A program made the translations under genes and the position numbers. The notes below the pieces were generated by a model. That model saw nothing but the letters and a program-made list of their open reading frames with translations. It was not told the origin of the DNA and searched no databases. Below are positions 3,315 through 43,222 of a stretch of 64,000 nucleotides of DNA, piece after piece. Position 1 is the stretch's first letter, and each line of letters starts with the position of its first letter. This DNA is from Lachnospiraceae bacterium (GTDB taxonomy: Bacteria; Bacillota; Clostridia; Lachnospirales; Lachnospiraceae): positions 22,496 through 86,495 of the forward strand of contig JAFUNK010000022.1 in assembly GCA_017482205.1 (NCBI GenBank), written 5' to 3'.

Positions 3315-6300
3315 ATGTACAAAAAAGTATCAACTGACCTGAATTTCGTGGAAAGAGAAAAACAGGTAGAACAGTTCTGGAAAGACAACCGGATTTTTGA
3401 AAAGAGTATGGAAACCCGTAAAGAGGGACCTACCTATACCTTCTATGACGGACCGCCTACCGCAAACGGTAAGCCCCACATCGGTCATGTGTTAACCCGT
3501 GTTATCAAGGATATGATTCCCAGATACCGTACCATGAAGGGCTATATGGTACCCAGAAAAGCAGGTTGGGATACCCACGGTCTGCCCGTAGAAATCGAAG
3601 TGGAAAAGCTGTTGGGCTTAGACGGTAAGGAACAGATTGAAAATTACGGTTTAGAACCTTTTATTGATAAGTGTAAGGAAAGCGTTTGGAAATACAAAGG
3701 TATGTGGGAGGACTTCTCCGGTACCGTTGGTTTCTGGGCGGATATGGATGACCCTTATGTTACCTACCATGATGACTTTATTGAGTCCGAATGGTGGGCA
3801 TTAAAGGAAATCTGGAATAAGAATTTACTTTACAAGGGCTTTAAGATTGTACCTTACTGCCCCCGTTGCGGTACCCCCCTTTCTTCCCAGGAAGTGGCAC
3901 AGGGTTACAAGGACGTAAAAGAACGTTCCGCTATCGCACGCTTTAAAGTAAGAAATGAAGATGCATACATTCTGGCATGGACCACAACCCCTTGGACTTT
4001 ACCCTCCAACGTGGCACTTTGTGTAAACCCTGAGGAGACTTACGCAAAGGTAAAGGCTGCTGACGGATATACTTATTATATGGCGCAGGCACTGCTTGAT
4101 ACCGTACTTGGTAAGCTGGCTGTAAAGGCTGACCCTGAAAACGGTGTGGAAGCTAAGGCAGCTTACGAAGTGCTGGAAACCATGACCGGTAAGGATTTGG
4201 AATACAAAGAATACGAGCCTTTATTTGATTATGCAAACGCAATCTGCGAAAAGCAGAAAAAGAAAGCACATTTCGTAACCTGCGACGGTTATGTTACTTT
4301 AACAGACGGTACCGGTGTGGTACATATTGCACCTGCATTCGGTGAAGACGATGCTAAGGTTGGACGTAACTATGACCTGCCTTTCGTACAGCTGGTAGAC
4401 GGTCAGGGTAATATGACGGAAGAAACTGACTTTGCAGGCGTATTCGTAAAGAAAGCGGACCCTATGGTATTAAAGGCGCTGGAAGAAAAGAATTTACTTT
4501 TCGATGCACCTAAGTTTGAACACAGTTATCCTCACTGCTGGAGATGTGACACTCCTCTGATTTACTATGCAAGAGAATCCTGGTACATCAAGATGACTGC
4601 AGTAAAAGAGGACTTAATCCGTAACAACAATACCATCAACTGGATTCCGGAATCTATCGGTAAGGGACGTTTCGGAGACTGGCTTGAAAATGTACAGGAC
4701 TGGGCAATTTCCCGTAACCGTTACTGGGGTACTCCTTTAAATATCTGGGAATGTGAATGCGGTCACCAGCACGCAATCGGCAGCCGTGCAGAACTGGCTG
4801 AAATGAGCGGTAATCCTGAAAATGCAAAGGTAGAGCTTCACAGACCTTATATCGATGAAGTGACCTTAAAGTGTCCCAAGTGTAACGGTACCATGCGTCG
4901 TGTGCCCGAGGTTATCGACTGCTGGTTTGACTCCGGTGCCATGCCTTTTGCACAGCATCACTATCCTTTTGAAAATAAAGAATTGTTTGAAGCACAGTTC
5001 CCTGCACAGTTTATTTCCGAAGCAGTGGACCAGACCAGAGGTTGGTTCTATTCCCTGCTTGCAGAGTCCACTCTGTTATTCAACAAGGCACCTTACGAAA
5101 ATGTAATCGTATTAGGCCATGTACAGGATGAAAACGGACAGAAGATGAGTAAGAGTAAGGGTAACGCAGTAGATCCCTTCGATGCACTGAATACCTACGG
5201 TGCTGATGCAATCCGCTGGTACTTCTACATCAACTCCGCACCCTGGCTTCCGAACCGTTTCCACGGTAAGGCCGTACAGGAAGGCCAGCGTAAGTTTATG
5301 GGTACCCTGTGGAATACCTACGCATTCTTCGTCCTGTATGCGAATATTGATGGTTTTGATGCAACCAAGTATGCATTGGAATATGATAAACTGACCGTTA
5401 TGGATAAGTGGCTCTTATCCAAGTTAAACACCGTAGTCAGTGAAGTGGATGATGATTTGAATAATTACAGAATCCCTGAAGCGGCAAGAGCATTGCAGGA
5501 ATTCGTGGATGACATGAGTAACTGGTATGTCAGAAGAAGCCGTGAACGTTTCTGGGCTAAGGGTATGGAACAGGATAAGATTAATGCATATATGACCCTT
5601 TATACCGCACTGGTAACCATCAGTAAGGCGGCAGCACCTATGATTCCTTTCATGACAGAAGAAATCTATCAGAACTTAGTATGCAGCATCGATGCAAATG
5701 CACCGGAAAGTATTCATTTATGCGACTTCCCTGTAGTGGATCCCGCATTTACCGACAAGCAGTTAGAAGCAGATATGGACATCGTATTAAAAGCTGTAGT
5801 AATGGGTCGTGCATGCAGAAATACTGCAAACATCAAAAACCGTCAGCCTATCAGTACCATGTTTGTAAAAGCTGACCGTGAACTGACTGATTTCTATAAA
5901 GATATCATTGCAGAAGAGTTGAATGTGAAGACCGTTACCTTTACCGATGATGTAAGAGACTTTACTTCCTACACCTTCAAGCCCCAGCTTCGTACCGTAG
6001 GACCTAAATACGGCAAGCAACTTGGCGGTATCCAGAAGACTTTAGGCTCTTTGGACGGCAATGCGGCAATGGATGAATTAAAGGCAAACGGTGCACTGAA
6101 GTTTATGGTAGGGGATGTAGAAGTTTCTCTGGCGGAAGAAGATTTACTTATCGAAATGACCCAGAAGGAAGGCTATGTAACCGAAGCAGACAACTATATG
6201 ACAGTTGTGCTGGATACCAATCTGACGGAAGCACTGGTTGAAGAAGGCTTTGTGCTGGAAGTAATCAGCAAGATCCAGACCATGAGAAAAGATGCAGACT

Positions 6301-40923: not shown

Positions 40924-41771
40924 CCGTACTGGCGGATATTCACGGTAATTACATAGCGTTGCAAAAATGTGTAGAGTATGTTCGGGAGAGGGGGATAGAT
41001 ACCTTCTTATTTCTGGGCGATTATGTAGGCGAACTGGCATATCCCCAAAGAACCATGCAACTTTTGTATGAATTACAGGACAAGTATCACTGTTATTTTA
41101 TCAAGGGAAACAAAGAGGATTACTGGATACATTATCATAAGATAGGCGGACAGGACTGGAAGGAAATAGATTCTACGACGGGTTCCATGGTGTATACTTA
41201 TCGGCATTTGTCAGAAAAGGATATAGAGTTCTTTAGGGAAATGTCGCATGTTCAGGAAGTTGTATTTCAAGGTCTGCCTGCAATTACCATTTGCCACGGT
41301 TCACCCCGCAAAGTAAATGAAAAGATGCTGGCAGATGATGAAAAAACTTTTGCCATCATGGAAGAGAATACAGCAGACTATATTCTGTGCGGACACACCC
41401 ATGTGCAAGGACAAATCCGGTATAAAAATAAAGTTGCATACAATCCGGGCTCGGTGGGTGTTTCTTTACATGGGAATGGTAGGGCGCAGTTTATGATTTT
41501 GCATGGAGCAAAGGGAGAATGGACAGAAGAATTTGTAAGTCTTGCATATGATGTGCAAAGTGTAATAAGGCAATTATATGAGGAAGAACTGCATATCAAG
41601 GCTCCCTGCTGGTGCAGGGTTACTAAAAATTTACTGTTAACCGGAGAAACACCGCACGGAAGTGTGTTGGCAAGAGCAATGCAGTTGTGTACAGAGGATA
41701 TGGGAAAATGCAACTGGCCCAATGTACCTGAAAAGTATTGGCAGCAGGCAGTGAAGGAAATGGTGGGATAA
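40902..41771 (+). CDS. Calcineurin-like metallophosphoesterase
   Basis: About 289 residues from the ATG at 40902 (GTGGAGG 10 bases upstream); an ATG at 40872 with AGAAGG is an alternative. The dinuclear metal site is complete: VLADIHGNY (DxH), FLGDYVG, KGNKEDYW, ICHGSPRK and CGHTHVQG. It resembles YfcE-like phosphodiesterases, with an extra C-terminal helical part. Either start overlaps the P-loop gene. Substrate unknown. Confidence 0.85.
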   Translation: MGADKQIAVLADIHGNYIALQKCVEYVRERGIDTFLFLGDYVGELAYPQRTMQLLYELQDKYHCYFIKGNKEDYWIHYHKIGGQDWKEIDSTTGSMVYTYRHLSEKDIEFFREMSHVQEVVFQGLPAITICHGSPRKVNEKMLADDEKTFAIMEENTADYILCGHTHVQGQIRYKNKVAYNPGSVGVSLHGNGRAQFMILHGAKGEWTEEFVSLAYDVQSVIRQLYEEELHIKAPCWCRVTKNLLLTGETPHGSVLARAMQLCTEDMGKCNWPNVPEKYWQQAVKEMVG

Positions 41772-41822
41772 CACAATTCGATGATGAAAAAAAGAATACA
41801 AATTTGTGTAAAAGTGACATTG

Positions 41823-41928
41823 TATAATAAAGTGTGACATGATAGACTCTCCTTATGGGAAACTAGAGAACTAGGCGGCTTACCCTCTTTAATCGGAGGG
41901 GCTACCCTCCGGACGAAGGAAAGGAGGG
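41823..41928 (+). promoter_or_regulatory. Promoter and switch-like leader of the small toxin gene
   Basis: TATAAT at 41823-41828 (weak -35). The leader has four alternately complementary runs: CCCTCT 41883-41888, GGAGGG 41895-41900, CCCTCC 41905-41910 and GGAGGG 41923-41928. The last is the ribosome site of the 30-residue ORF, so pairing of run 3 with run 4 would close it, and run 2 with run 3 would open it. Confidence 0.6.
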
Positions 41929-41936
41929 CGTTGCTA

Positions 41937-42029
41937 ATGGTTACATATACTGATTTAATTCAGTTTTGTATATTCATTGTAGCCCTTGTGGGTCTGTGTT
42001 ATCAGATATTCAAGGGCAAACGAAAATAG
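41937..42029 (+). CDS. Putative holin-like / type I toxin small membrane peptide
   Basis: 30 residues: MVTYTDLIQFCIFIVALV continuing GLCYQIFKGKRK. A single membrane helix (about 7-23) with a strongly basic tail is the form of the 'putative holin-like toxin' family and of TxpA/BsrG-type type I toxins, which damage the membrane when over-produced. AAAGGAGGG lies 8 bases before the ATG. The opening MVTY is common in that family. A convergent promoter and a terminator stem behind the ORF suggest an antisense RNA antitoxin. It is independent of the flanking core genes. No function has been shown for this copy. Confidence 0.68.
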   Translation: MVTYTDLIQFCIFIVALVGLCYQIFKGKRK

Positions 42030-42114
42030 CCGCCACTACTGCAATAGTGACGGCTGACGTAAAACGTTAGTTGAACATTTAAGGGTAGACCGCTTCTCTA
42101 GCTTTCCCTTTTCT
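42020..42114 (-). ncRNA. Candidate antisense RNA antitoxin
   Basis: On the minus strand, TTGACA (42149-42144) and TACTCT (42126-42121) are 17 bases apart. A transcript from about 42114 would run through AAGGGAAAGCTAGAGAAG and reach the stem AGCCGTCACTA-ttgca-TAGTGGCGGCT (42054-42028), then TATTTT. It overlaps the 3-prime end of the toxin message, as in txpA/RatA. Exact ends are estimates. Confidence 0.45.
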
Positions 42115-42355
42115 ATTTTTAGAGTAGTCTATAATAGCGTATTTGTCAATGGTTTTGTTGAAGTAAAATCACAGCTCTTGGGAATCTTTGTAAGATTGTC
42201 AAACCTTGACGAACTACTTTAAATTGTATATAATTAAATACAATCCTTGTATACAAAAAACAAAATATGTACAAGGAACAATAAATATTAAGAACAGAAG
42301 TGCATGTCAAGATTAGCTATAGGACAGATTTCACAGTATAGAGACGGAGACAAAG

Positions 42356-43222
42356 ATGGACACCTTAAAAATAGAAGCCTACGCAAAAATAAATTTAGGA
42401 CTGGATGTAGTAAGACGTTTAGAAAACGGTTACCATGAAGTGAAGATGGTGATGCAGACTGTCGGTATCGGGGATACGATTACCCTGACAAAAACAGAAG
42501 AGGGTATTACGGTTACTACTGACAGTGGCGAAATTCCGGCAGATGAAAACAATCTGGTCTATAAAGTAGCCAAGCTTTTGAAAGAGACTTGCGACATCAA
42601 AGAGGGTGTTGCCATTCATCTGGAAAAGCGGATTCCGGTGGCGGCAGGAATGGCTGGCGGCAGTACTGATGCGGCAGCAGTTTTTAAAGGTATGAACGAA
42701 TTGTTTTCCTTAGGACTGTCACAGGAAGAACTGCAAAAGCTGGGCGTGAAGCTGGGAGCGGATATTCCCTATTGTATTCAGGGAGGTACTGCACTGGCAG
42801 AGGGTATCGGCGAAAAACTGACAGCCCTGCCCGATGCACCGAATTGCTTTTTACTGGTGGCAAAGCCGGATATCAATGTATCTACCAAGTATGTGTATGA
42901 AAACCTGAATTTACCGGGACTTAAAAAGCATCCCGATATTGACGGTATGGTAGAGGCGATTAAAGAGGGAGATTTGGAGGGCGTGATTGCTCGCATGGAT
43001 AATGTGCTGGCAAGTGTAACCGAGGAAAAATATCCGATTATCACAGAATTAAAAGAATTTATGGAACAAAACGGTGCGAAGAAAGCTTTGATGAGTGGCA
43101 GTGGACCTACCGTGTTCGGTATTTATGATAAGGAAGACGCAGCAATGGCGGCAAGTAAAAAACTGGCAGAAAAAAATCTGGTAAAGCAGATTTTTGTAAC
43201 AACGTTTCAGAGAAAGGAGTAA
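42356..43222 (+). CDS. ispE: 4-diphosphocytidyl-2-C-methyl-D-erythritol kinase
   Basis: 288 residues. ATP-dependent kinase of the MEP isoprenoid pathway, which makes the precursors of undecaprenyl carriers. GHMP signatures: EAYAKINLGLDVVRRLENGY at the start, PVAAGMAGGSTDAAAVFKGM (ATP loop) near residue 95, and KKALMSGSGPTVFGIYD near the C-terminus. GGAG lies 6 bases before the ATG. The GntR regulator follows after 5 bases. Confidence 0.96.
   Translation: MDTLKIEAYAKINLGLDVVRRLENGYHEVKMVMQTVGIGDTITLTKTEEGITVTTDSGEIPADENNLVYKVAKLLKETCDIKEGVAIHLEKRIPVAAGMAGGSTDAAAVFKGMNELFSLGLSQEELQKLGVKLGADIPYCIQGGTALAEGIGEKLTALPDAPNCFLLVAKPDINVSTKYVYENLNLPGLKKHPDIDGMVEAIKEGDLEGVIARMDNVLASVTEEKYPIITELKEFMEQNGAKKALMSGSGPTVFGIYDKEDAAMAASKKLAEKNLVKQIFVTTFQRKE

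Follow-up and report, generated by a model that had tools for sequence, protein, structure and literature searches.

A holin-like type I toxin-antitoxin candidate from the Lachnospiraceae with covarying toxin message ends

The gap in front of ispE in the window (the whole 64,000-nucleotide stretch of Lachnospiraceae DNA analyzed here) carries a type I toxin-antitoxin candidate of a known kind, well supported at the sequence level by a PF16935 peptide and a conserved antisense gene. An earlier note on this DNA had proposed such a candidate. The main point missing from that note is that the leaders of the toxin message and of the antisense RNA form an inverted repeat, giving a covarying helix between the 5' and 3' ends of the toxin mRNA. 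The homology of the peptide, the architecture of the module, and the covariation of the 5'-3' helix were established in this analysis; a switch at the Shine-Dalgarno (SD) sequence and the polarity of that switch are predicted from folding. On balance, we favor a PF16935 holin-like type I module in which the antisense RNA takes the mRNA 3' end and restores an OFF fold. The features of the module are as follows.

41820..41848, plus strand: predicted toxin mRNA promoter, with a -35-like TTGTAT (41820-41825) and an extended -10, TGA-TAGACT (41840-41848); from alignment to relatives
41857..41879, plus strand: 5' arm of the long-distance helix, GGGAAACTAGAGAA (41857-41870) and GCGGC (41875-41879); from the inverted repeat and covariation
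41882..41889, plus strand: anti-SD segment a, ACCCTCTT, predicted partner of the SD when not captured by the 3' end; from partition-function folding
41895..41910, plus strand: predicted leader hairpin b/a', GGAGGGG (41895-41901) with ACCCTCC (41904-41910); from folding
41923-41928, plus strand: SD GGAGGG, 8 bases 5' of the ATG; from sequence and folding
41937..42029, plus strand: toxin ORF, ATG to stop, 30 residues, PF16935 putative holin-like; from the ORF list and Pfam score
42083..42119, plus strand: 3' arm of the long-distance helix (42083-42108) and T-rich tail, putative mRNA terminator; from fold and covariation
42055-42028, minus strand: antisense terminator stem, 12 pairs followed by a T run; from the terminator scan
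About 42114 to about 42020, minus strand: antisense RNA, predicted antitoxin, about 95 nt; from model R1, built on 46 loci including the window
42121..42149, minus strand: antisense promoter, -35 TTGACA (42149-42144) and -10 TACTCT (42126-42121); from sequence and alignment to relatives

A holin-like peptide gene upstream of ispE

The toxin ORF lies in a gap of 584 bases (about 580 bp in the earlier note) between the end of a phosphoesterase ORF at 41771 and the start of the ispE ORF at 42356, both labels being that note's own gene names. It encodes MVTYTDLIQFCIFIVALVGLCYQIFKGKRK, a peptide so short that gene callers easily miss it. The membrane helix and basic tail described earlier were borne out by a 17-residue hydropathy maximum of 2.22 and a KGKRK tail, and the ribosome site reported before the ORF was found as the SD listed above. 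A short peptide that is hydrophobic, spans the membrane once, and ends in a charged tail is what is expected of a type I toxin.

The only Pfam match of the peptide was Hol_Tox (PF16935), which it matched over profile positions 1-34 of 34 at 28.3 bits, against a curated gathering cut-off of 23.3. By score, the peptide is thus a member of the holin-like toxin family to which it had been likened; the family label, “putative holin-like toxin,” is silent on antisense RNA and on mRNA fold. The small-peptide homologues on which the earlier note had made its claim depend were found both by Pfam and by protein searches of genomes. Within the peptide, dN/dS was 0.24 (22 codons, 91 loci), so that it looks to be under purifying selection. 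NCBIfam PepG1 (NF041589), the profile for the toxin of sprG1/SprF1 from Staphylococcus aureus, showed weak similarity over residues 7-30 at 20 bits, far below its cut-off of 70; for sprG1/SprF1, 3' complementarity has been described (PMC8167048). This kind of peptide is not new, because an earlier survey cited in a review of the Clostridia had already given TxpA-like sequences in Clostridium bolteae (PMC6563280).

A convergent antisense RNA gene

Opposite the toxin gene runs a predicted antisense RNA gene with its own promoter, terminator, and match to model R1, and its product would be complementary to the toxin mRNA, as in type I systems. The convergent consensus TTGACA promoter of the earlier note stood in part: the -35 is perfect and its spacer is 17 bases, but the -10 is poor, so that only the -35 is consensus. 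This promoter was not among the sites listed by a promoter scan of the 2-kb region. The terminator stem that had been seen just behind the ORF is there, with its T run, and predicted ends at 42114 and 42020 agree with the length of about 95 bases first suggested. The likeness to a txpA/RatA layout also held, in that an antisense RNA with these putative ends covers the 3' part of the mRNA and the two RNAs would pair through their 3' parts. An antitoxin of the txpA/RatA type would be expected to match a described RNA family; an Rfam search of the window gave no match at gathering score. The best hit at the E-value threshold, gyrA (19.9 bits versus 45), covers the terminator and was taken as chance.

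The terminator scan alone proves nothing, because it gave 2 sites in the 2-kb region and 1.5 in shuffles. The stem columns were mostly invariant in an alignment of 46 loci (A2), partly as the loci had been found by this stem. The layout is nevertheless more than chance because it recurs in relatives. An extended -10 (TGnTAnnnT) was present within 30 bases 5' of the sense leader in 83 of 91 loci (shuffle mean, 3.7) and before the antisense leader in 87 of the 91 (shuffle mean, 5.3). The 91 include the window, whose own antisense promoter falls by eye outside the 87 and whose sense promoter is, by inspection, of weak consensus. Judged by these alignments, the antisense gene is conserved.

Two smaller observations concern the antisense side. 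In columns 58-73 of A2, just 5' of the terminator, is a small stem (e.g., ACCTC-TTAC-GAGGT) that is variable, complementary by eye, and misaligned. R1 also matched weakly on the opposite strand at L215 (contig C18 of the window's own genome), L085, L180, and L068, perhaps due to the symmetric terminator and a toxin side that resembles the antisense side.

The predicted toxin message has covarying ends

When relatives were compared, the toxin leader and the antisense leader were seen to begin alike, mostly as GGGAAA-CC-ANAG...GCGGC...ACCC. On the DNA, these shared leaders are an inverted repeat with copies about 220 bases apart. Read on the minus strand, 42083..42119 is the antisense leader; on the plus strand, this second copy reads as an imperfect hairpin with a T-rich tail behind it, which is why we place the end of the toxin mRNA there. 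The terminator scan of the 2-kb region did not list a terminator at this copy. Because the antisense leader looks on the plus strand like an mRNA terminator, the antisense gene probably lies wholly inside the 3' part of the mRNA. Because both leaders share one sequence as an inverted repeat, the toxin leader is complementary to the putative 3' end of its own mRNA.

Our set of 127 complete loci gave 116 with enough flank, of which 114 were distinct. By local alignment, the inverted repeat beat 200 of 200 dinucleotide shuffles in 65 of the 114 distinct loci, the window included, and was reached by at most 2 of 200 shuffles in 78 of them. This local alignment took the place of a comparison of RNAduplex energies between whole flanks and shuffles, which discriminated poorly because pairing is always found over long stretches (all 30 shuffles were beaten in 74 of 114 loci). 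With no use of the repeat score, a loose expression picked out 79 of the 127 loci, 63 of which had the same stretch in both leaders. The toxin mRNA of the window, with its start inferred to lie near 41855 from the sequence of its relatives, folded over 41855-42122 at -103.1 kcal/mol with its ends paired (z, -7.1; 0 of 200 shuffles as good).

For covariation, we used an alignment of 91 loci (A1). The 23 of 114 loci left out were 9 from diverged subfamilies and 14 with a repeat score below 20. Over an 18-pair helix, 94.6% of cells were paired, compared to 91.0% with the 3' letters dealt anew (0 of 500), the percentage paired being raised by the choice of loci at a repeat score of at least 20, which favors pairing. 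Sliding the partner by 1 to 3 columns left 31 to 59% of cells paired. Both sides had changed at 9 of the 18 pairs, versus 3.5 in shuffles. The window forms 17 of the 18 counted pairs and has a C-G to U-A double change common to 2 of the 91 loci.

The most variable pair was UA in 38 loci, GC in 32, CG in 7, AU in 4, GU in 2, UG in 2, another combination in 3, and a gap in 3. On a tree made from the ORF and terminator columns only (about 120 columns), parsimony gave 31 changes on the 5' side of this pair and 30 on the 3' side. Among 45 disjoint nearest-neighbor pairs of loci, both sides differed in 19 and neither in 20; in 17 of the 19, both members still pair. The remaining 6 differed at one position, 3 at the 5' one (including one gap) and 3 at the 3' one, and 4 of these 6 were G-U steps. 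The consensus fold of the antisense RNA alone (46 loci) had 13 pairs and double changes in none of them, so that the covariation is not accounted for by a hairpin of this RNA in that fold. The covariation of the 5'-3' helix is strong, and across these relatives the ends of the toxin message appear to have been kept complementary by evolution.

Diverged loci were folded as well. At least 22 pairs between the 5' and 3' ends were present in the best fold of 5 of 11 (L018, L020, L021, L029, and L054), and the other 6 had fewer (0, 0, 0, 3, 3, and 9). These low counts arise partly because the promoters in the 11 loci were picked automatically and several picks look wrong. Thus, folding suggests that subfamilies with quite different leaders can keep the 5'-3' closure. 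The five loci that close are PF16935 loci, and each could be a subfamily of its own.

A predicted switch at the Shine-Dalgarno sequence

A helix between the ends of a toxin mRNA poses the question of whether closing the message turns translation on or off. The leader contains, in order, ACCCTC (a), GGAGGGG (b), ACCCTCC (a'), and the SD GGAGGG, and 81 of the 91 loci had recognizable segments and were used for segment folding. The main hairpin was b-a', with a mean pairing of 0.76 without the 3' end and 0.82 with it. Pairing of a with the SD averaged 0.71 without the 3' end and 0.28 with the true 3' end but 0.70 with shuffled 3' ends (81 loci). The leader paired with its tail at 0.68 for true tails and 0.35 for shuffled ones.

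The SD itself was unpaired at a mean of about 0.02 to 0.03 in the 3'-truncated form and 0.18 at full length (81 to 91 loci). In the window, it was unpaired at 0.32 at full length, 0.02 when 3' truncated, and 0.03 when the segment lying opposite the antisense RNA was masked. Compared to truncation, the true 3' end raised this value by more than 0.1 in 48 of 91 loci, lowered it in 1, and left it within 0.1 in 42; compared to shuffled 3' ends, the value went up in 45 of 81 loci and down in 0 of 81. These values come from thermodynamic folding on predicted ends, without kinetics, and the predicted release is partial. The folds suggest competition for the 3' end between the leader and its near copy, the antisense RNA, with the SD shut as a consequence.

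The mechanism that we favor would run as follows. The toxin mRNA would extend from about 41855 to 42120, with the 5' part of its leader complementary to its own 3' end. In the closed, full-length message, the 3' end would hold the leader and leave the SD partly free. The antisense RNA would start with a near copy of the leader, complementary to the same mRNA 3' end, and on capturing that end would let the anti-SD of the leader return to the SD, giving the OFF fold in which translation stops. The long antisense-mRNA duplex would probably be cut by RNase III. Were the antisense gene lost or silenced, the peptide would be made and would act on the membrane, and the module may have an addiction-like role; the toxicity of the peptide and its prevention by the RNA are predictions from sequence. 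There is precedent for the last step of the fold, as SR4 binding at the 3' end of bsrG mRNA extends an SD-hiding stem (PMC6562991).

The reverse polarity, which we consider unlikely, is known from hok and from AapA1 and AapA3 (PMC6733600, PMC8167048). On this reading, the closed 5'-3' mRNA would be a stable, inactive store that 3' processing opens and renders translatable, and whose opened form the antisense RNA catches. The 5'-3' helix itself has equal support under this polarity; however, the folded SD is more hidden when the message is 3' truncated (0.03 versus 0.18 over 91 loci and 0.02 versus 0.32 in the window). It is less probable still that the antisense RNA only triggers RNase III decay and the helix protects the ends with no control of translation. 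RatA does work solely via RNase III, with the mRNA fold unchanged (PMC6562991), and the long 3' complementarity would suit such a role, but here an anti-SD is part of that switching region of the leader, and its predicted pairing with the SD falls when the true 3' end is present, as given above (0.71 to 0.28, 81 loci).

We attach very little probability to the view that the leaders are alike through a common binding factor or gene conversion of the inverted repeats, with pairing as a by-product. In several loci, L177 and L020 among them, the likeness does extend as far as the -10 region, but a binder of fixed sequence leaves unexplained that four bases change in step at one site (all four occur at the variable pair), and conversion leaves unexplained why the two copies differ in the segment that separates the helix parts. 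Nearly negligible is a silent, unexpressed relic in the window's genome with drifted -10 elements: the antisense TACTCT and the sense TAGACT are off the family pattern, but the ORF, the SD, both helix arms (17 of 18 pairs, with the double change common to 2 of 91 loci), and the terminator are intact.

Relation to known systems

Capture of the mRNA 3' end by the antisense RNA, the reading that we favor, shares parts with several described systems. As in txpA/RatA and bsrG/SR4, type I systems of Bacillus subtilis, a small toxic peptide would be paired with an antisense RNA on the mRNA 3' end (PMC6562991); unlike here, the parts of that source on these systems describe neither a 5'-3' helix nor a leader-copy antisense RNA. 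As in hok/Sok and aapA/IsoA, the toxin mRNA would be closed by a 5'-3' long-distance interaction (PMC6733600), which covariation and fold point to here, given the putative mRNA 3' end. In the hok and AapA mRNAs, that interaction is the OFF state with the SD hidden (PMC6733600), whereas here it is predicted to free the SD, which in silico was more accessible in 48 of 91 loci when the 3' end was present. Our module differs also in its peptide, which matched only Hol_Tox in Pfam, and in a host that its named relatives suggest is Gram positive. Fst/RNAII (par of pAD1) likewise has a short membrane peptide, convergent RNAs, 5'-end repeats, and a terminator between them (PMC8167048). Its repeats are direct, making the leaders mutually complementary; those here are inverted, making the leaders alike. 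With this arrangement and a Pfam match only to Hol_Tox, Fst-type direct repeats were rejected.

More tentatively, and with somewhat more doubt than belief, we propose an antitoxin RNA that duplicates the toxin leader as a free molecule and competes with it for the mRNA 3' end, a polarity that is the reverse of that of hok/AapA, and a class of such modules in gut Lachnospiraceae. If so, a 3' end bound to the leader would mean a closed ring with an open ribosome site, and one bound to the antitoxin would mean an open ring with a shut site; the leader sequence could drift provided that both copies drift together. Among the matches listed in a search of the open-licence PMC literature, judged by title and abstract opening, there was no description of a covarying 5'-3' helix with a leader-copy antisense RNA for PF16935 loci.

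Distribution, copies, and decay of the module

The window's genome (28 contigs totalling 2.16 Mb, 74% complete) contains three copies of the module: that in the window, one on contig C18 that is 79% identical, and one on C11 that matches only the C-terminal half of the peptide. R1 scored them at 88.3 bits (window, in the model), 73.9 bits (C18), and 79.5 bits (C11), the latter two not being in the model. A further PF16935 match in this genome, L048 (C15:83288-83371), scored 35.4 bits without a strong R1 match and is probably another subfamily.

PF16935 matches were found in 61 of 200 genomes of the family, 58 of them over the cut-off. A separate protein search at an E value of 0.01 matched 18 of 61 genomes (own genome included), 17 of these 18 being in the window's genus. 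Within the genus, R1 matched at least 43 of 101 genomes, one of them with at least 9 copies, and across the phylum it matched at least 3 of 398, the own genome included; the R1 counts are lower bounds, as part of the first-look candidates were scored (150 of 662 in the own-genome search and fewer per genome elsewhere). A pattern scan of named genomes gave at least 119 stretches and at least 125 places. Among 80 titles of the matches listed, most named Lachnospiraceae or genera belonging to that family, and one was a metagenome-assembled genome labelled Bacteroidales.

Searches of phage and plasmid DNA gave no match. Protein searches gave 7 phage records at an E value of 1 or worse and 1 plasmid record at an E value of 2 with the product name putative holin-like toxin. 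With the DNA searches empty and protein matches only at 1 or worse, a phage or plasmid home was unsupported.

Among the matches listed by the pattern scan, 92 of 125 places had an open toxin frame by a rule that required a motif but no start codon; two of these 92 (L078 and L095) look as though their N terminus has been replaced. Manual inspection divided the remaining 33 into 7 intact by eye (two of which stop one or two codons short), 3 truncated where a contig ends, and 23 with a broken or missing toxin. An antisense match of at least 66 bits, a score that takes in the antisense leader, was kept in 17 of these 23; the scan had required the terminator, so only retention of the unsearched 5' antisense part counts. 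L091 and L160, two of the 17, have nearly the same sequence. The sense leader expression was found in 1 of the 23. Such retention of the antisense gene is consistent with harm when the antitoxin is lost before the toxin. Antisense genes that outlive their toxin were seen at L003/L213 (own genome, C11), L063, L070, L085, L091, L103, L123, L133, L136, L155, L157, L160, and others. Modules also occur in tandem or close together, at L162 (three loci, at 6033, 6403, and 6783), at L068, and at G106:C1 1653175, 1653576, and 1653977, where PF16935 matches are 401 bases apart.

A possible insertion in front of ispE

The ispE protein was present in 96 of 101 genomes of the genus, and the module lay upstream of ispE in 2 of 30 fetched loci, the window and L183. 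In L183 (2200-3800, minus strand), the ispE promoter region, about 48 bases, flanks the module at either end (0 of 500 shuffles); in L184, a relative without the module, it is found only in front of ispE. By sequence, the arrangement in L183 looks like insertion with duplication of the target. No such duplication was detectable beside the module in the window (139 of 500 shuffles). In the window, 42206-42256 contains a strong sigma-70-like promoter before ispE, TTGACG-17-TATAAT (11 of 12), and near-palindromes around ATTGTATATAATTAAATACAAT and TTGTATACAA overlap and follow this promoter and could be an operator.
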